Shown here in pieces: positions 1-9,954 of a DNA stretch of 64,000 bases. The translations under genes were made by a program, and so were the position numbers. The stretch covers positions 5,166,001-5,230,000 of the forward strand of contig NZ_CP018319.1 of the NCBI RefSeq assembly GCF_001952935.1. Direction: 5' to 3'. Every line of letters starts with the position of its first letter. Within the stretch, counting starts at the first letter, position 1. This DNA comes from Pseudomonas frederiksbergensis (GTDB lineage: Bacteria; Pseudomonadota; Gammaproteobacteria; Pseudomonadales; Pseudomonadaceae). The notes under the pieces were generated by a model. It was not told where the DNA came from. It made no database searches and was given only the letters and a program-made list of their open reading frames with translations.

Positions 1-232
1 CGCGCACCGCTTCCTTCAAGGGGATACCGCGACGAGTCCAGGCTGGCAGGTAATCGGTTTCTCGCCAACACAACGTCGCCAGGCGAGAAGCACCGAGTAA
101 CGGAGACAGGCCCAGCAGCAGATCCTGTTCGTCCAGATCCAGATAAAGCATGCCAATGCGATAACGGAACCCATGGAATCGCGGCGCCAGACGCCGGTGG
201 ATGACCCAACCGTAGCAAAGGCTGCTGTTCAC
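1..232 (-). CDS. DUF1365 family protein, N-terminal part (runs off left edge)
   Basis: Only the first 77 codons are in the window. The start is GTG at 230-232, overlapping the TGA stop of the upstream FAD oxidoreductase gene as GTGA, which signals translational coupling. The visible protein has the family's N-terminal pattern: a Tyr-Gly-x-Val-x-His-Arg-Arg stretch, then PRFHGFRYRIGMLYLDLDE, an arrangement typical of DUF1365. Family members nearly always sit between an amine-oxidase-like flavoprotein and a cyclopropane-fatty-acid-synthase-like methyltransferase. That methyltransferase would be expected just outside the left edge. The biochemical role is unknown; context points to membrane fatty-acid modification under light or singlet-oxygen stress (inference). 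Confidence 0.85.
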   Translation of the reverse strand, partial: MNSSLCYGWVIHRRLAPRFHGFRYRIGMLYLDLDEQDLLLGLSPLLGASRLATLCWRETDYLPAWTRRGIPLKEAVR

Positions 233-1476
233 AGGCGCTCCCCGAATCTTTGGGCGACGTCCAGTGCGCTGACCACGCCATCCTCATGGAAGCCGTTTGC
301 CCAATAAGCGCCGCAGAAGTAGCTGTGCTGGTTTCCCTGTAGCTCGCCCTGGCGCGCTTGGGCCGCCATGGCGGCAAGGCTGTATTGAGGATGTGCATAT
401 TCGAAGCGAGCCAGCACCTGCGACGGGTCCACGCAATCGCCCTGATTGAGGCTTATGCAGAAGGTTACCGGGGCGTCGAGGCCTTGCAGTATGTTCATGT
501 TGTAGGTCACGGCCGCCGGGGCGTGCGCGGGTCCACCGAGGCGATAGTTCCAGCTGGCCCAAGCCTTGCGCCGGCTGGGCAGCAGGCGGGTGTCGGTGTG
601 AAGCAATACTTCGTTGGCGGCATAGTCGAGGGCGCCTAGCACCTCGTGCTCGGTGGCCGTCGGTTTCTCCAGCAGCGCCAAAGCCTGGTCGCTATGGCAG
701 GCGAACACGACCTTGTCGAAACGCTCCTGGCCTGCCGCACTTGTGATCACCACGCCGTTGTCGTCCCGGCGGACGCTCATCACCGGGCAGCTGAGCCGAA
801 TGCGTTCGCTGAAGGTCTTGCACAATGGCTCCACATAGCTGCGCGAGCCACCCTCGATCACTCGCCATTGTGGTCGCTGGCTGATCGAGAGCAGTCCATG
901 GTTACGGAAAAAGCGGACGAAGAAGTGCAACGGGAAGCGCAGCATATCGGCCCGTGATACCGACCAGATGGCCGAGCCCATGGGGACGATGTAGTGATGG
1001 ATGAAACGCTGCCCGTAGCGTCGCGTGTGCAGGTAATCGCCAAGACTCATGCCCGGCTCAATGCGGTGGCCGTCAAGGTCGGCCACCGCCTGGCGGTTGA
1101 AGCGCACGATATCGCGCAACATACCCCAGAAGCCCGGCGACAGCAGATTGCCGCGCTGGGCGAAGAGGGTGTCCAGGTTGTTGCCGTTGTATTCCAGGCC
1201 ACTCTCCGGATCGTTCACGGAAAAGCTCATCTCGGTGGGGCGTGAGACGACTCCAAGGCGATCCATCAAGCGGATGAAGTTGGGATAGGTCCAGTCGTTG
1301 AATACGATGAAACCGGTGTCTACTGCATAACGCTGGCCCTGCCATTCTATGTCGACAGTATGGGTATGACCGCCGATCCAGTCAGCCGCTTCGAACACGG
1401 TCACCTCATTGCGACGTGACAACAGATAGGCACAGGTCAGCCCAGAGATCCCGCTGCCGATAATGGCGATACGCAT
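229..1476 (-). CDS. FAD-dependent amine-oxidase-like oxidoreductase
   Basis: The 415-residue protein opens with a Rossmann dinucleotide motif (IAIIGSGISGLTCAYLL, residues 3-19). An acidic residue ends the second strand (VFEA), followed by the GGHTHTV segment seen in the protoporphyrinogen-oxidase/amine-oxidase superfamily. Length and order fit the flavoprotein that accompanies DUF1365 and CFA-synthase-like genes in many proteobacteria, where the group belongs to light or singlet-oxygen regulons. It lies 6 bp after the SDR gene and overlaps the DUF1365 start, so it is mid-operon. Substrate unknown; desaturation or oxidation of a membrane lipid acyl chain is the usual guess (inference). Confidence 0.9.
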   Translation of the reverse strand: MRIAIIGSGISGLTCAYLLSRRNEVTVFEAADWIGGHTHTVDIEWQGQRYAVDTGFIVFNDWTYPNFIRLMDRLGVVSRPTEMSFSVNDPESGLEYNGNNLDTLFAQRGNLLSPGFWGMLRDIVRFNRQAVADLDGHRIEPGMSLGDYLHTRRYGQRFIHHYIVPMGSAIWSVSRADMLRFPLHFFVRFFRNHGLLSISQRPQWRVIEGGSRSYVEPLCKTFSERIRLSCPVMSVRRDDNGVVITSAAGQERFDKVVFACHSDQALALLEKPTATEHEVLGALDYAANEVLLHTDTRLLPSRRKAWASWNYRLGGPAHAPAAVTYNMNILQGLDAPVTFCISLNQGDCVDPSQVLARFEYAHPQYSLAAMAAQARQGELQGNQHSYFCGAYWANGFHEDGVVSALDVAQRFGERL

Positions 1477-1482
1477 ATGACG

Positions 1483-2232
1483 CTATTCCTGTTCGGTTCG
1501 CGCCAGTCGACGGCCCAGGGCCAGGCGCCAACGCGCTGGCAGGGCGCCAAGCAAGCGCAGGATGAGAATGAAGAAGCGTGGAAAGTTGATCTCCAACGGT
1601 CGTCGCGTCAGGCGCGCGACGACATGCCGCGCGGCGCGGTCGGCCGTCCAGAGTTGGGGCATGGCAAAGGTGTTGCGCTGAGTCAGGGGGGTGTCGATGA
1701 AGCCGGGGCTGACCAGCGTTACATCGATGCCTTCGGTATGTAGATCCAGGCGCAGGGACTCGACCAGATAACGCAGAGCCGCCTTGGACGCGCCATAGGC
1801 TCCAGCCCGGGGTAGCGCCAGCCAGGTTACCGAGCTGCCGATCACTACCAGATGTGGTCTATGCCCCCGGCGCAGCAGTGGAAGGGCCGCCTGCAGGCAG
1901 TAGCTGACCCCCAGCAGGTTGGTGCGCATCATCCGCTCGACGGTCTCGGCTTCGAACCTGCCCGGCACAAGGTATTCGCAGGTACCGGCGTTCAGGATCA
2001 CCAGGTCGAGTGCGCCCCAGGCATGCTCGATGTTTTCGCAGATAGCCGAGACGTGTCGTGGGTCAGTCACGTCGCCGGTAGTGAGCAGGGCCCCAGGGTA
2101 GCGCAGCACCAGCGGCATCAGTGCCTCCGCCCGCCGGCCACCCAAGGCCACCTCATGGCCTTGTTCCAGCAGCCGCTCAGCCAGGGCAGCACCGAGGCCG
2201 CTGCTGGCGCCTGTCAGCCAGCAGCGGCTCAT
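1483..2232 (-). CDS. Short-chain dehydrogenase/reductase (SDR)
   Basis: A 249-residue classical SDR. The N-terminal cofactor motif is TGASSGLGAALAERL (residues 7-21), the structural motif LNAGT lies near residue 80, and the catalytic pattern is Ser with YGASK (Tyr-x-x-x-Lys) near residues 145-149. An Arg-rich patch after the first strand (GGRRAEAL) suggests NADP(H) preference. The C-terminus is long and hydrophobic (FFILILRLLGALPARW), so the enzyme may associate with the membrane. The ATG overlaps the stop of the SnoaL-like gene (ATGA, 2229-2232). It is the second gene of the operon controlled by the two TGTACA repeats. Substrate unknown. Confidence 0.9.
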   Translation of the reverse strand: MSRCWLTGASSGLGAALAERLLEQGHEVALGGRRAEALMPLVLRYPGALLTTGDVTDPRHVSAICENIEHAWGALDLVILNAGTCEYLVPGRFEAETVERMMRTNLLGVSYCLQAALPLLRRGHRPHLVVIGSSVTWLALPRAGAYGASKAALRYLVESLRLDLHTEGIDVTLVSPGFIDTPLTQRNTFAMPQLWTADRAARHVVARLTRRPLEINFPRFFILILRLLGALPARWRLALGRRLARTEQE

Positions 2233-2651
2233 GCGAGCCTGCCCTTGATCCAGCCAATCACTCCGCCAAGTACGGGAACGTGCTCGTAGAGGAGGGCGCC
2301 GGCATCGAAGTAGTCGTGGTGCAGGTAGACATGTGTCGTCCAGCGCAGGTGGCTGCAGCCATGCAGACTGATCGGCTGACCGCGGGACAGGCGCGGATGA
2401 CGGAAATGCAGGATCCAGCGCAGATAACCCTGCCCGGGGGCGGTTTCATCCGCGTCAAGGAGGTCGTAGCGGATATCCTGGACGTTGGTGTACAGCTTTT
2501 CAAAGTACGTGCGCAGTGCGGGCAAGCCATCCAGCTGATGCAACGGGTCACGAAACTGAACGTCGTTGCTGTATAGCTCGCCCAGGCGGTCCAGACAATC
2601 AGCGTTCAGCGTTGCGAACGTATCAGCGAAATGGTGGAGATATGCAGACAT
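2229..2651 (-). CDS. SnoaL-like / NTF2-fold protein
   Basis: A 140-residue protein with the pattern of SnoaL-like proteins of the NTF2 fold: an N-terminal helix (FADTFATLNADCLDRLGELY), then NDVQFRDPLH, where Asp and Pro are typical, followed by alternating strands with His and Trp. These proteins act as isomerases, cyclases or small-ligand binders; nothing here fixes the reaction. It is the first gene of the operon. Its start lies 19 bp from the nearest TGTACA half-site and is preceded by CTGGAG, a good ribosome-binding site. Homologues commonly head DUF1365/SDR/flavoprotein clusters in Pseudomonas. Confidence 0.85.
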   Translation of the reverse strand: MSAYLHHFADTFATLNADCLDRLGELYSNDVQFRDPLHQLDGLPALRTYFEKLYTNVQDIRYDLLDADETAPGQGYLRWILHFRHPRLSRGQPISLHGCSHLRWTTHVYLHHDYFDAGALLYEHVPVLGGVIGWIKGRLA

Positions 2652-2670: not shown

Positions 2671-2694
2671 TGTACAATTCGAGAAAACTGTACA
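2671..2694. promoter_or_regulatory. LitR/PplR-type operator, proximal copy
   Basis: TGTACA at 2671-2676 and TGTACA at 2689-2694 form an exact direct repeat with 12 bases between. This matches the PplR1 site reported for light-induced P. putida promoters (T[G/A]TACA-N12-TGTA[C/T]A). The half-sites are spaced like -35 and -10 boxes of the leftward promoter and end 19 bp before the SnoaL-like start, so a bound repressor would cover the core promoter (inference). Confidence 0.8.
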
Positions 2695-2721
2695 GATTTA
2701 TCTGAAGCCTACGGGGAAAAT

Positions 2722-2745
2722 TGTACAAGTCAATATTCTTGTACA
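2722..2745. promoter_or_regulatory. LitR/PplR-type operator, distal copy
   Basis: A second exact TGTACA-N12-TGTACA repeat, with half-sites at 2722-2727 and 2740-2745, lies 51 bp (about five helical turns) from the first. Both lie in the 125-bp gap between the LOV gene stop and the SnoaL-like gene start. On the minus strand it contains TTGACT, which could serve as a -35 box. The spacing would place two repressor oligomers on the same DNA face (inference). Confidence 0.78.
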
Positions 2746-2776: not shown

Positions 2777-3223
2777 TTAGGCACCAAGCCTTGCCAGTTT
2801 ACTGCGAAGCTCGGCCACTTCGGTCTCAAGTGACTGTATCCTTTCCAGAGCGGCAATCTTGTCGCTGACGTCGTGCTGTATGCCAATGTAGTAGGTCAAC
2901 TGGTCGGCATCATTGTGCACGGGAGTGATAGACAGCTCGTTCCAGAACGGGCTGCCATCCTTGCGATAGTTGCGCAGTACCTGACGGCAGGGCTGACCGA
3001 GGCGGATGGCGTCACGGATTGCCTCCAGCCCGGCCTGGGCATGATCGTCTGCCTGCAGGAAGCGGCAATCCTGGTAGAGAATTTCGTCTGAACTGTAGCC
3101 GGTCAGGCGCTCGAAGGCAGGGTTGGCATAGATGAGGATGCTGTCATTGCCTTCCTGCTCGGCCACGACGATGCCGTCATTGGAGGCTTCGACCATAAGT
3201 TGCAGGAGTTTGGCGTCAATCAT
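2777..3223 (-). CDS. Short LOV blue-light photoreceptor (PpSB-LOV type)
   Basis: A 148-residue single LOV/PAS protein with no effector domain. The flavin-binding core includes SNDGIVVAEQEG, the LTGYSSDEILYQDCRFLQ segment with the photoactive Cys at residue 53, the RNYRKDGSPFWNELSITPV stretch and YYIGIQHDV. A C-terminal helix (residues 125-148, LETEVAELRSKLARL) can form the coiled coil used for dimerisation. Length and sequence fit P. putida PpSB1/PpSB2-LOV, and the wording is nearer PpSB2 as I recall it. In P. putida these photoreceptors are required, together with neighbouring PplR regulators, for light-induced transcription. The gene is divergent from the MerR regulator at 3373 and points towards the two TGTACA operators. 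Confidence 0.93.
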   Translation of the reverse strand: MIDAKLLQLMVEASNDGIVVAEQEGNDSILIYANPAFERLTGYSSDEILYQDCRFLQADDHAQAGLEAIRDAIRLGQPCRQVLRNYRKDGSPFWNELSITPVHNDADQLTYYIGIQHDVSDKIAALERIQSLETEVAELRSKLARLGA

Positions 3224-3372: not shown

Positions 3373-4305
3373 ATGCAACGACTTTCAATGACCGAGCCCA
3401 TCGAATCCACCTCCGACGACGCATTGCTCCCCATGCGGGAAGTCGCCAGCCTGACTGGCGTCAACCCGATCACCTTGCGGGCATGGGAGCGCCGCCACGG
3501 GCTGATCCGACCCGTACGCACTGTGGGAGGGCATCGCCTGTATTCGCAACAGGACATCGAACATATTCGTAGCATCATGCTCTGGACCAGCCGGGGCCTG
3601 CCCATCAGCAAGATAGGCGCTTTGCTCGTCCGGCAGCAGGACACACCCGATGCCACTGTATCTGGCTCGGCCGAAGCTCCCCTGGTCCAGTGGCAAGAGG
3701 CAGTTCATCGTGCCACTCAGGCTTTTGACGGCGCTGAGCTGGAGCGCCTGCACGGGCAACTATTTACGATCTATCCGAAAGCAACTGCACTGGAGGCTAT
3801 TCTGCTGCCGGTTTGGCGCAGCCTGGCATCCGGTAATAATTTCGGTCGACGCAGTCAGTGGTTGTTCCTTGACGCCTTCTTGCGTGCGCGGATGTTATTG
3901 CGACTGCAGATGAACCAGAGCAACGGTGCTTGCGTGCTGCTGGCAGACGGCTCGGGCCATGCGCGCGAATTGGAGCTGTTGTGTGCTGGTTTGTTGATGA
4001 GCAGCGACCAGCTTCGCATCGAGGTGTTGGGCACGGGCCAGCCTCTGGAAGAACTGCCGTTGCTGTGTGAAGCAATTCAGCCCGCCGCGCTGGTGCTATT
4101 GGTCCAGGCGCCACTGCAGGAAGATGCGCTCAAGCGACTGCGCGCCCTTCAAATGGGCGTTACGTGCCCAGTGGCCTTGGCCGGCGACGCGGCTGCCGCT
4201 TCGTCGGCAGGGTTGCGGGGTTCTTCGATTGCCATTTTGGGCAATGACGAAGCGAGTATTTTGCCCAGGCTGGAAGCCTTGGTAAGGGGAACACTGCAAA
4301 TTTGA
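3373..4305 (+). CDS. MerR-family light-response regulator, LitR/CarH/PplR class
   Basis: The N-terminal winged helix is MerR-like (MREVASLTGVNPITLRAWERRHG, then GHRLYS, residues 22-64). A helical bundle and a cobalamin-binding-like Rossmann domain follow (from about residue 190, CVLLADGSGHARELELL). AdoB12-type CarH proteins carry Wx9EH and ExHxxG. Here the EH pair appears replaced, and the ExHxxG equivalent reads SGHARE, keeping only the His. The protein is therefore unlikely to sense light through B12 and probably works with the adjacent LOV protein, as shown for class II LitR (PplR) of P. putida. An alternative ATG at 3388 gives 305 residues. Probable target: the TGTACA repeats at 2671-2745. 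Confidence 0.88.
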   Translation: MQRLSMTEPIESTSDDALLPMREVASLTGVNPITLRAWERRHGLIRPVRTVGGHRLYSQQDIEHIRSIMLWTSRGLPISKIGALLVRQQDTPDATVSGSAEAPLVQWQEAVHRATQAFDGAELERLHGQLFTIYPKATALEAILLPVWRSLASGNNFGRRSQWLFLDAFLRARMLLRLQMNQSNGACVLLADGSGHARELELLCAGLLMSSDQLRIEVLGTGQPLEELPLLCEAIQPAALVLLVQAPLQEDALKRLRALQMGVTCPVALAGDAAAASSAGLRGSSIAILGNDEASILPRLEALVRGTLQI

Positions 4306-7189: not shown

Positions 7190-7806
7190 CCCATGCACTC
7201 CCGCAATACAACCAGACTGCGTTTGATCCAGGCTTTGACGGTCCCCAGCGGTGCGTCCAGTTTCTGCGATATTTCAGAATGCGAATAGCCGTCTACATAT
7301 GCATGAAGGATGCAGTTGCGACGTACCGGCTCCAGTTGTTCAAGGCATAAATAAATACGTCCTGAACGGGTTCGAAAATCGAAGGCCTCCACACTCTCTG
7401 ACGATGTCTCCATGGATGACAAAGCTTGCAGTGCCATTTCACTTTGCTCGCTGACTTGTACCTCTCTGGCGTTATCTCGCATGAAATTGAGCGCCAGATG
7501 TCGCGTCACGCTGAAGATCCAGCCACGGGCAGAGCCTCGTGCCGGATCAAAACTGGCGGCACGGGTCCATATTTTGATGAAGGCATCGTGCACAATGTCT
7601 TCTGCCAAGGAGTTATTGCGAGCGATTCGCTTGGCAACCCCCAAAAGTCGAGCACTTTCCTGCTCATACAAGTCTCGCAGTGCCTGCTGCTCGCCCCGGG
7701 AGCAAGCAGCCAGGCAGGCTTCATAGTCAAAACAGGGCTCGGGTAGGGACAAAGTTTTCAGCCGCCAGCTGGTAGAAATTTCCCAGCCATTGGGCTGGAG
7801 TTCCAT
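7186..7806 (-). CDS. ECF sigma-70 family factor (SigK-like)
   Basis: Region 2 is visible as ARLLGVAKRIARNNSLAEDIVHDAFIKIW, followed by RGWIFSVTRHLALNFMRD. Region 4 with its HTH is LEQLEPVRRNCILHAYVDGYSHSEISQKL, then LGTVKAWIKRSLVVLREC. There is no region 1.1 or 3, so it is an ECF factor, and its pairing with an RskA-type anti-sigma factor places it among SigK-like factors. The start is uncertain: ATG at 7804-7806 is used here, a TTG lies at 7839, and homologues may begin nearer LSLPEPCFDYEA. It overlaps the anti-sigma gene by 4 bp and follows the DUF3455 gene. Confidence 0.88.
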   Translation of the reverse strand: MELQPNGWEISTSWRLKTLSLPEPCFDYEACLAACSRGEQQALRDLYEQESARLLGVAKRIARNNSLAEDIVHDAFIKIWTRAASFDPARGSARGWIFSVTRHLALNFMRDNAREVQVSEQSEMALQALSSMETSSESVEAFDFRTRSGRIYLCLEQLEPVRRNCILHAYVDGYSHSEISQKLDAPLGTVKAWIKRSLVVLRECMG

Positions 7807-7858
7807 CGGAGCAGAGTAGACGACTTTGTGCGATAACAACCTGTTCCAGGTAGTTGGC

Positions 7859-8401
7859 TTAATTGGCTGCCCAAAAAATATAGTCAGCCTGATATTTCAC
7901 TACCTCACGTTTGCCTTTGTCAGCGGTGGAGCATTCAGTCGTGGGCGCTACGCCGCCTTTTACGGCCACCCGCTGGATAAAACTGACACCGCTCATCGCG
8001 CCATTGCCTTCCGCAGGGGTAGCCTTGACCAACTGATAAGGGAGGTCGCCAGTACCTGAGGGTGCAACCGCCAGTTGGGTCCCGGTAATTTTAGACCCGT
8101 CATTAGCTTGCCAGGTGGCAGGCGGTCCGAAGTAGGTGCCGACCTGTTTGCCGCTGCGATCATTTAGTACTGCTTTGGGCCCGACGAAAGCCCATTCAGT
8201 CTGACCGATGGCGTTTGTTTTGGAGCGACACTCATACGTGATTTCGCCTACGCCCACGGTTTCCAGCGCGACCTTATGACCGTCAGGAACCTTGATGCTG
8301 TCGGGCAGATCTGACTGGGCGTAGGCAGCTGGCAATGTGACTAACAAGCAGGAGGCAGCAAGCGTAGTACTGACAATGCCCAGAAATCGTTTAGCGTTCA
8401 T
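7859..8401 (-). CDS. Secreted DUF3455 protein
   Basis: A 180-residue protein with a Sec signal peptide (MNAKRFLGIVSTTLAASCLLVTLPAAYA, cleavage after AYA). The mature domain has the DUF3455 features: a P(D)xIxVPxG-like opening (DLPDSIKVPDGHKVALE), ITYECRSK, WAFVGPKAVLNDRSGKQVGTYFGPPATW, and the closing YQADYIFWAAN. It contains two Cys in the mature part, which could form a disulfide. A GGAGAG ribosome-binding site precedes the ATG. It is the first gene of the sigma/anti-sigma operon, so it is probably both a target and a co-product of the ECF response. Function unknown. Confidence 0.9.
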   Translation of the reverse strand: MNAKRFLGIVSTTLAASCLLVTLPAAYAQSDLPDSIKVPDGHKVALETVGVGEITYECRSKTNAIGQTEWAFVGPKAVLNDRSGKQVGTYFGPPATWQANDGSKITGTQLAVAPSGTGDLPYQLVKATPAEGNGAMSGVSFIQRVAVKGGVAPTTECSTADKGKREVVKYQADYIFWAAN

Positions 8402-8450
8402 ACAAGTCTCTCCAGAAAGGTGATCAGTTCAGCAGCGTTGGCTACTACCT

Positions 8451-8480
8451 GTACTACCCATTGGAGGACAAACTGGATGC
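8451..8480 (-). promoter_or_regulatory. Candidate ECF-type promoter of the DUF3455 operon
   Basis: On the minus strand GCATCC (8475-8480) is followed after 17 bases by GTAGTAC (8451-8457), about 50 bp before the DUF3455 start. The GCATCC / GTA layout resembles ECF promoters and would fit autoregulation. It is one weak match with no comparison set. Confidence 0.3.
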
Positions 8481-8704
8481 AGTTCTTGAAAAATATCAGT
8501 AATGGAAGGTTTGTAGCGTTATTGCTTAATCGCTGTATGAGTGTCTGTTTATGGCCGAATCTGGGGAAAAGTCGATTTTCAGAATGACGTTGGATGGATC
8601 GGTGAAAGCGCCCACTACTGGCTTTCATCGCAGTCTGGTCGAGGAACTCATCACGGAAGGGCTGCCGATTCTTCCGGTGTATCTCGGTAGCTCGGTGAAG
8701 ATGC

Positions 8705-9007
8705 GTGAATCAGATGAGCGCTGCCATCCTTTTAGCGCTGGCGCGCTATCTCGATGGTGCTGTGCACATCGATAATAACTGGTGCGAGAATCAAATCCAG
8801 CCGTGGGCTCTTGGGCGCTCGAACTGGCTGTTCGCGGGCTCGTTACGCAGCGGCAAACGTGTGGCGGCGATCATGAGCTTGATCCAGTCTGCGCGCATGA
8901 ATGGACATGATCCATATGCATATTTGAAAGACGTTCTCACGCGCCTGCCTATGCCGCGAGTGAGCGAGATCGATCAGTTGCTGCCGCATAAGTGGCAACC
9001 TGTTTAA
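8705..9007 (+). pseudogene. IS66-family transposase, C-terminal remnant
   Basis: The frame encodes the last ~100 residues of an IS66-type transposase: ALARYLDGAVHIDNNWCENQ, then PWALGRSNWLFAGSLRSGKRVAA, SLIQSARMNGHDPYAYLKDVL and a closing LLPHKWQP. The ID-N-N-x-x-E motif contains the catalytic Glu of the DDE triad. The two upstream Asp residues and the rest of the roughly 500-residue protein are absent. Before it (8402-8704) I see no transposase sequence in any frame and no terminal inverted repeat, so the element is an old deletion relic. Confidence 0.85.
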
Positions 9008-9036
9008 TCAAGCATTTTCGGTTGGCTCCACTCCTG

Positions 9037-9954
9037 CTAGTCAAGCCTTGAAGCGTGTTGAAAACCCTCGCCAGTGATTGCCCGACGTATTTCGCGCGCG
9101 TCGCGGGCTGGAGATGCGCCGAATTGCCTTACATATTCGCGGCTAAACTGGGATGCGCTTTCATAGCCGACAGCGAACGCCACGTCAGACGCGCGATGCT
9201 CGCCAGCAAGCAAAAGCTGGCGAGCCTCCTGCAACCTGAGCTGTTTCTGATACTGGATGGGACTAAGGCCTGTTATCGACAGAAAATGGCGATGCAGGCT
9301 TGCCCGGCTCATCCCGCTTGCATCGCACAACGCCTCGATGCGAAGTCTGGTGTCGTAGTAGTCCCTGATCCAGGCAACGGCTCGCCGGATGCGACTTACT
9401 GCGCCATCGGGTTGGGCAATCTGACGCAGCAGTCGTCCTTGTGGGCCCTGAAGAAGACGATAGAGCAATTCCCGTTCGACCAAGGGGCCGAGAACCGGGA
9501 TATCGGCAGGTGTGTCGAGCAAAGATAATAAGCGCAGCAACGTGTCGCGAAGCGAAGCGGTCATCGGGTTTATCAGGATGCCAATCCCTTTTTGTTCGCT
9601 CTCGCGAACCGACGGCATGGTCGCCGCCAGTTCCGCCAATATGGCCGGATCCAGCACGAGCGATACCGCAACGTAAGGCTGCCCCCCTTCAGCATCAAGA
9701 ATCTGCCCGATCAATGGCAGGTCCAGGGCGCTGATGAGATATTGCTCACTGTCGTAGCTCAGAAGATTGTCGTTAATCGCGACGCGCTTCGAGCCTTGCA
9801 GGATGAAGCAGATCATCGAGCGATACAGGCAGGGCGCCTTGTCTGTAGAGCCTTGCCCGACGCAGATGTCCACACGCGGGATCGGTGTGATAGTCAAACC
9901 GGGTGGCGCATGGCGCAGGGCTATATCAAGATGCGGTGCAAGATCGTTGTGCAT
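9037..9954 (-). CDS. AraC-family transcriptional regulator (AraC_N type)
   Basis: The N-terminal ligand domain (about residues 25-170) has the AraC_N pattern: APCLYRSMICFILQGSKRVAI, a YLISALDLPLIGQI stretch, then FLVDP-like VSLVLDP. Two C-terminal HTH motifs follow: RIEALCDASGMSRASLHRHF and ASDVAFAVGYESASQFSREYVRQFG. The ATG at 9952-9954 (MHNDLAPHLD) is preferred; an upstream extension encodes a poorly conserved Arg/His-rich stretch. It is divergent from the SDR at 10112, a common arrangement in which the regulator controls the SDR, often in response to aldehydes or xenobiotics (inference). Ligand unknown. Confidence 0.88.
   Translation of the reverse strand: MHNDLAPHLDIALRHAPPGLTITPIPRVDICVGQGSTDKAPCLYRSMICFILQGSKRVAINDNLLSYDSEQYLISALDLPLIGQILDAEGGQPYVAVSLVLDPAILAELAATMPSVRESEQKGIGILINPMTASLRDTLLRLLSLLDTPADIPVLGPLVERELLYRLLQGPQGRLLRQIAQPDGAVSRIRRAVAWIRDYYDTRLRIEALCDASGMSRASLHRHFLSITGLSPIQYQKQLRLQEARQLLLAGEHRASDVAFAVGYESASQFSREYVRQFGASPARDAREIRRAITGEGFQHASRLD

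Follow-up and report, generated by a model that had tools for sequence, protein, structure and literature searches.

Two exact copies of the element TGTACA-N12-TGTACA stand in front of a putative lipid operon of Pseudomonas frederiksbergensis, in the 64,000-nucleotide stretch of DNA analysed here (hereafter the window). They raise the question of whether the pair forms a light-responsive operator and, if so, how two sites act together at a single promoter.

The operator pair and its neighbourhood

As the first-pass annotation had claimed, the two repeats lie at 2722-2745 (Site 1) and 2671-2694 (Site 2), on the minus strand with respect to the operon, 51 bp apart both start to start and centre to centre, with 27 bp between them. 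They fall in the 125-bp intergenic gap that it had also indicated (2652-2776), which extends from the start of a SnoaL-like ORF (2651, minus strand) to the stop of a LOV gene (2777). An exact site appeared in none of 1000 dinucleotide-preserving shuffles of the window (0/1000) and in none of 5000 shuffles of the gap (0/5000). With up to two mismatches allowed, 0.82 sites are expected per window and two or more were seen in 21/100 shuffles; as such relaxed sites are expected by chance, the case rests only on exactness and conservation. One could argue that the repeats are chance palindromes, or a repeat devoid of regulatory role, as TGTACA is its own reverse complement, with 9 occurrences in the window where 5.7 are expected. 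However, not even one exact site came out of the 1000 shuffles, and the site positions are conserved across the genus (see below). Together, shuffles and conservation rule out a chance origin, a reading to which we assign practically no weight, and the operator pair is real and functional-looking.

The genes on both sides are those that had been proposed. The operon, all on the minus strand, starts with the SnoaL-like ORF (2229..2651; SnoaL_2, 3.6e-12), followed by a short-chain dehydrogenase (SDR) ORF (1483..2232; adh_short match) and an FAD amine-oxidase-type oxidoreductase ORF (229..1476; Amino_oxidase match), and its row continues past the window edge with DUF1365, a CMAS/CFA-type (cyclopropane-synthase type) methyltransferase and DUF2878, in agreement with a lipid/redox function. 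Upstream of the operon and codirectional with it lies a short LOV photoreceptor ORF (2777..3223, minus strand) of 148 aa, a stand-alone LOV domain with the flavin-adduct cysteine (DCRFLQ) and no effector domain. Its best PDB match is 7a6p (236 bits, E 8.6e-70) and the next is 3sw1 (190 bits, E 1.3e-55), which we take to be PpSB2-LOV and PpSB1-LOV, respectively. Divergent from the LOV gene is a LitR/CarH-like MerR regulator ORF (3373..4305, plus strand), combining a MerR helix-turn-helix (MerR_1, 2.2e-15) with a LitR/CarH-like C-terminal half. It aligns with Thermus thermophilus CarH (3whp, 5c8d) over residues 9-257 (E 2e-16) and matches the NCBIfam CarH model with E 9.9e-23, under the curated cut-off. 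No Pfam B12-binding_2 hit was found in it up to E 5, though the CarH alignment spans that region, while such a hit is present in a pplR1-like paralogue at 3515368. The histidine of the CarH GERHE motif, presumably the B12 lower ligand, is aligned to an arginine, and the absence of this residue is as expected for a class II LitR.

This genome encodes three LitR-like MerRs and two short LOVs: the two further LitR-like MerRs share 44% and 35% identity with that of the window, two weaker MerR matches cover the N-terminal part only, and the second short LOV is 59% identical to the window LOV. A PplR1-3 / PpSB1-LOV / PpSB2-LOV system was reportedly described in P. putida KT2440 by Sumi et al. in 2020. 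The numbers of three LitRs and two short LOVs are the same in P. putida KT2440, where the regulators are named PplR1-3 and PpSB1/2-LOV (PMC9758184), and the window sites fit the pattern T(G/A)TACA-N12-TGTA(C/T)A, as given in the text of that paper, with two copies in one promoter. The proposed assignment to the PplR/PmlR2 (class II LitR) operator type therefore appears sound, since the sequence fits the site pattern. TGTACA is absent from the divergent gap between the LOV and LitR genes of the window. This is similar to P. mendocina, where pmSB-LOV and pmlR2 are constitutive according to the authors, with 0.9-1.1 and 1.4-1.5 fold, respectively (PMC9758184).

Across the whole genome, TRTACA-N12-TGTAYA occurs in six places, four of which make up two twin operators. 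We thus observe a second twin operator in addition to that of the window lipid operon, before rudS-litR-phr (3517191/3517241, offset 50), which is new here; rudS is so named from its DUF1722 and 2-thiouracil desulfurase domains and from the relevant part of PMC11417400. A single site at 5162492 precedes a Chalcone_3/DUF3833 pair convergent with the lipid operon. The remaining exact single site, at 2730151, was rejected as a regulon member because it lies inside an ORF (a porin by eye), and is probably a chance occurrence.

Promoter geometry and mode of control

The idea of a twin LitR operator at a blue-light promoter is already known from the P6650 promoter of P. mendocina, whose description provides the closest comparison. 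In the portions of Maruyama et al. (2022; PMC9758184) that concern this promoter, two such sites were footprinted, the transcription start was mapped 48 bp before the ATG, and the promoter reads TTGACT-N16-TATGAT; Site 1 covers the -35, and Site 2 falls between the start and the ATG. A single continuous footprint covers both sites (+32/-45 and +37/-54). P6650 is light-inducible in P. mendocina, and its transcription in vitro is repressed by PmlR2 and relieved by illuminated PmSB-LOV, which acts as an anti-repressor (PMC9758184).

The window shares with P6650 the two TGTACA-N12-TGTACA sites, a TTGACT within Site 1 (2728..2733, minus strand; a -35 hexamer identical to that of P6650) and a probable -10 after 16 bp (TAGGCT, 2706..2711, minus strand), which differs from the TATGAT of P6650 and is weaker. 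The TTGACT-N16-TAGGCT pair was not reported by a generic promoter scan of the region, and the same scan gave no terminator-like site on the minus strand between the LOV and SnoaL genes. Setting the start at the P6650 distance, 48 bp before the ATG, places it at 2699 (minus strand), so that Site 1 would extend from -46 to -23 and Site 2 from +6 to +29, the latter lying at -43 to -20 relative to the ATG. By analogy with P6650, Site 1 would thus overlap the -35 and Site 2 would fall in the 5' leader, between start and ATG in both promoters. The first-pass annotation had one copy overlapping the core promoter and the other upstream. Its first half holds for the SnoaL-distal copy (2722-2745), which covers the -35, whereas its second half is probably wrong and was rejected because a P6650-like start puts 2671-2694 downstream, in the leader.

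The likeness extends to a regulon of photolyase and lipid genes, with a different arrangement. According to PMC9758184, P. mendocina has one long operon of nine genes, from PME6650 to PME6610, in a region with pmlR1, phrB and ufaM, whereas in the window the lipid half is a separate unit that has a twin operator of its own and adjoins LOV and LitR. With its sensor, regulator and operator as direct neighbours, the lipid operon may represent a light-regulated module that is portable. Light repressors of the MerR type are also found in Myxococcus xanthus, in the form of CarA and CarH. There, as reported in the part of PMC8156234 dealing with the operator, two CarA dimers bind cooperatively over the -35 of PB, and the CarA/CarH operator of ~55 bp (-70 to -19) is wholly upstream of the start. 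The window differs in that Site 2 would lie downstream of its start, so that its operator is not wholly upstream.

From sequence and from analogy with P6650, we propose that the window very probably carries a class II LitR (PplR/PmlR2) twin operator at a sigma-70-type, blue-light-derepressed promoter of a SnoaL/SDR/FAD/DUF1365/CFA-like lipid operon, which would add a second promoter to the published photocontrol system. If the window promoter behaves like P6650, in the dark a repressor on Site 1 would cover the -35 and another on Site 2 would cover about +6 to +29, the two bound sites together shutting the promoter, and the repressor might also act as a road-block stopping read-through from the upstream LOV gene. 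Under blue light, a short LOV protein would bind LitR and strip it off, allowing transcription to start. The acting repressor would be one of the three LitRs of the genome, and the near-fixed spacing described below may reflect contact between the two bound repressor units.

Conservation and spacing of the twin operator

The twin operator is present in 271 of 398 genomes of the genus, and 14 of the 398 carry two (counted from the table), with zero occurrences of a reversed-pattern control in every row of the scan. Gaps of 12-42 bp between sites were allowed, corresponding to offsets of 36-66. Despite this, the spacing is mostly 49-52 bp, with 44-47 bp in a few genomes. The twin operator is therefore widespread in the genus at near-fixed spacing, an observation that is new here. 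None of the titles and abstracts listed deals with the cooperativity of class II LitR sites or with how far their spacing is conserved.

At least 120 twin loci came from a scan of public genome contigs, and a downstream gene could be assigned in 109 of them: rudS in 93, SnoaL in 12, litR in 2, phr in 1 and MerR in 1 among the matches listed. The 11 of 120 left out of these class counts are L118, L158, L182, L202 and L204 (offset 36-37), L180 and L199 (offset 42), L124 and L171 (more than one match, repeats), and L160 and L169 (offset 50, no gene match). Among the matches listed, the offsets of the 93 rudS loci are 46 (4), 49 (13), 50 (66) and 51 (10), with a standard deviation of 0.95 bp, against 7.8 bp for the distance from Site 2 to the ATG in the same loci. 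The spacers of the 66 rudS loci with offset 50 have a mean identity of 59% (lowest 15%), and thinning to spacers below 60% identity leaves 14 loci with offsets 46 (2), 49 (1), 50 (6) and 51 (5), again among the matches listed. When strict twin loci are pooled, with the possibility that one species is counted twice, rudS offsets are 44 (1), 46 (4), 49 (15), 50 (91) and 51 (14) (n=125), and SnoaL offsets are 50 (2), 51 (35) and 52 (16) (n=53). As all these counts are drawn from related species, they are not independent trials.

Among the matches listed, 80 of the 120 loci are named, and they include Azotobacter, Stutzerimonas, Grimontia, Salinivibrio, Enterovibrio and Photobacterium; the other 40 (L178-L217) entered the analysis without names. 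The twins of the last four, which lie outside the genus of the published system, precede rudS or litR at a spacing of 47-51 (L133, L143, L153, L161, L166). Four genomes have a further single site ~1.1 kb from the rudS operator (L046:3516, L048:1029, L050:964, L051:3349), located where the gene upstream of rudS (FAD-type oxidoreductase by eye) begins or slightly ahead of that point.

Relatives of the SnoaL gene were found in 280 of the 398 genomes, and we examined 70 of these loci, the 30 best and then the 40 next in rank, omitting three that had already been taken (G278, G057, G190). In 15 of the 70, SnoaL directly follows phr and has no site. Site 2 is retained, with no more than one mismatch, in every one of the 55 separate SnoaL promoters. 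Both sites, with at most one mismatch each, are present at an offset of 50-52 in 38 of the 55 (51 in 25, 52 in 12, 50 in 1), and in the other 17 Site 1 is shifted or damaged while Site 2 is kept. An exact TTGACT occupies the -35 place in 29 of 53 SnoaL twin loci versus 99 of 125 rudS twin loci. The 24 of 53 SnoaL twin loci whose Site 1 is without exact TTGACT include several that also have an unclear -10 (by eye), and a plain sigma-70 promoter therefore does not account for every orthologue. The 1.2-1.5 kb upstream contain a LOV gene in 26 of the 55 separate SnoaL promoters, indicating that the LOV/LitR pair is not a required part. 

Two subclasses of SnoaL loci are worth describing. In L081-L084, L090, L222, L226, L231, L232 and L239, both operators are kept at offset 52, there is no recognisable TTGACT or TAGGCT, and a motif close to ACCTGCACTATACC recurs with few changes just before Site 2. 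In L097, L228, L230, L233, L234, L238, L242, L246 and L252, about three spaced TGTACA-like half-sites are found upstream of SnoaL instead of Site 1, and Site 2 is perfect.

How the two sites would work together can be weighed from these data. They may act without any cooperation, Site 1 occluding RNA polymerase and Site 2 serving separately as a road-block to leaky initiation and to read-through from LOV, in which case the spacing would be fixed solely through the link of each site to a promoter landmark of its own. The -35 inside Site 1, the position of Site 2 just after the presumed start, the single-site promoter in the same genome and the presence of Site 2 without a strict Site 1 in 17 of the 55 separate SnoaL promoters all favour such independence, as does the binding of PmlR2 to an isolated Site 2 in P. 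mendocina, reported in the binding experiments of PMC9758184. However, a pure road-block needs no near-fixed distance, yet in rudS loci the offset is much more constant than the distance to the ATG, and SnoaL loci are still spaced at 51-52 bp where an exact TTGACT is no longer present in Site 1. We would give independent sites somewhat less than an even chance. We attach a similar weight, a little under one half, to looping or wrapping, where one LitR oligomer would hold both sites and trap the promoter between them. This would account for the near-fixed spacing, yet the 27 bp between the sites are short for a true DNA loop. In addition, the minor forms at 44, 46 and 47 bp (G378, L129 and others, L153) differ from the 50-51 bp class by roughly half a helical turn and count against a strict helical-phase rule. 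More favourable to it are the unbroken footprint across both sites in P. mendocina and the apparent size of PmlR2, 226 kDa, a hexamer according to the authors of PMC9758184.

Alternatively, the sites might belong to another regulator, such as a B12-dependent CarH in other taxa, and the LOV pair would then be irrelevant to this operon. This would be compatible with the 29 of 55 separate SnoaL promoters for which no LOV gene was found 1.2-1.5 kb upstream, and with the twin operators of Photobacterium, Grimontia, Salinivibrio and Enterovibrio (among the matches listed). Nevertheless, the site sequence is that of PplR1/PmlR2, and P6650 answers to PmlR2 and PmSB-LOV in the in vitro assays of PMC9758184, making this reading quite improbable. 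To return to the LitR twin operator that we favour, its near-fixed spacing provides indirect support for cooperation between the sites. Having been footprinted at one promoter and being widespread at near-fixed spacing, the twin operator makes a cooperative-clamp model testable by spacing mutants.

Site 2 in the predicted transcript and the history of the lipid module

Because Site 2 would be transcribed, it may have a role in the mRNA as well. In folding predictions for both twin-operator leaders of this genome, Site 2 forms a 10-11-bp stem that starts 5 nt from the first folded base. In the window leader, folded from the presumed start, Site 2 forms a putative 10-bp RNA hairpin (-11.4 kcal/mol, z -1.45, 19/200 shuffles as good), and the rudS leader gives -19.1 kcal/mol (z -2.34, 4/200 shuffles as good). 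To compare individual sites, only the inner 12 bases were shuffled, because TGTACA alone gives 6 pairs. A rank in the top 5% of its own shuffles is then reached by 62 of 120 rudS Site 2 copies versus 11 of 77 rudS Site 1 copies, and by 3 of 43 SnoaL Site 2 and 6 of 36 SnoaL Site 1 copies, both Site 1 controls also being somewhat above 5%.

Covariation was then considered for the rudS class. The complementary pairs 7-18, 8-17 and 9-16 of Site 2 are found in 85, 76 and 45 of 124 loci versus 46, 44 and 33 expected, and the pairing excess is 82.8 in the true register but does not exceed 19.2 after a shift of up to 4 positions. Among 62 disjoint nearest rudS pairs, there are 4, 4 and 5 compensatory changes (7-18, 8-17, 9-16) versus about one each, numbers reached by 25, 27 and 1 of 2000 permutations, respectively; in the same 62 pairs, 5, 7 and 13 double changes fail to preserve pairing, and a change affects one side only in 14, 19 and 21 cases. 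Strong departures can arise from relatedness by itself, as seen in flank pairs outside the site (z 5.4 and -2.9 for rudS; 3.9 and -3.9 for SnoaL). At the 7-18 place, rudS Site 1 is A-T in 101 of 109 loci among the combinations listed; as Site 1 is nearly constant where Site 2 varies, a preference of a single protein provides no easy explanation. There is thus fair to good support, from sequence comparison, that compensatory changes in Site 2 of the rudS promoter fit an mRNA hairpin, the signal being much weaker at the untranscribed Site 1. These changes are seen in rudS loci among L015-L053 and L098-L217, and L011:6192-6215 (minus strand) is the rudS operon Site 2.

For the SnoaL class, a first test on 52 hand-copied sites, in which loci with a defective Site 1 were included, gave an apparent signal at three pairs but was discarded: in strict SnoaL twin loci only the inner pair 9-16 stood out in Site 2, and a one-base slide gives an almost equal excess (6.8 vs 7.7), not above control. 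A hairpin role of Site 2 at the window promoter, whose leader is predicted to fold, is possible. A spacing-locked clamp with a dual-use downstream operator, which would hold LitR as DNA and form a 5'-terminal stem-loop as transcript, is a rather unlikely combination in our judgement. If true, a stem-loop ~5 nt from the mRNA 5' end could set transcript stability or translation. The rudS leader raises the more general question of operators acting also as mRNA hairpins; the text of PMC9758184 contains no mention of hairpin, stem-loop or spacing.

Finally, we asked where the separate lipid operon comes from. Under one twin operator, L263-L265 have the gene order rudS, litR, phr, SnoaL, SDR, and the phr operon of the window genome has only an SDR after phr (ORFs of at least 120 aa). 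In a midpoint-rooted tree of the FAD protein (31 rows from 29 chosen genomes), one split with 100/100 support separates 20 rows from separate operons, including that of the window, from 11 rows near rudS; labels were taken from coordinates, and gene order was checked in G053, G150, G252 and G367. The window FAD gene thus belongs to a lineage other than the photolyase-linked FAD, a result from sequence that is also new here. Judged by RudS and by a ferrochelatase-like protein (identified by eye), the window genome belongs with the rudS-near FAD group. Compared with it, G046 shows 93% and 95% identity in RudS and the ferrochelatase-like protein, and 72% in the rudS-near FAD. Base composition gives no sign of recent gain, the first 4 kb of the window having a GC of 0.60 versus 0.55-0.65 elsewhere in the window. 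Lateral gain of the window lipid operon and an old duplicate kept by chance both fit these data.

Both FAD copies are carried by G252 and G367 (L297 and L298): the first belongs to a rudS-litR-phr-SDR-FAD row that lacks a SnoaL match, and the second is separate and window-like. Moreover, G046 (L296) has an extra SnoaL/SDR/FAD copy at 7224-9647, with the FAD match in two pieces and one strict single site upstream at 9884, perhaps representing a further copy in decay.
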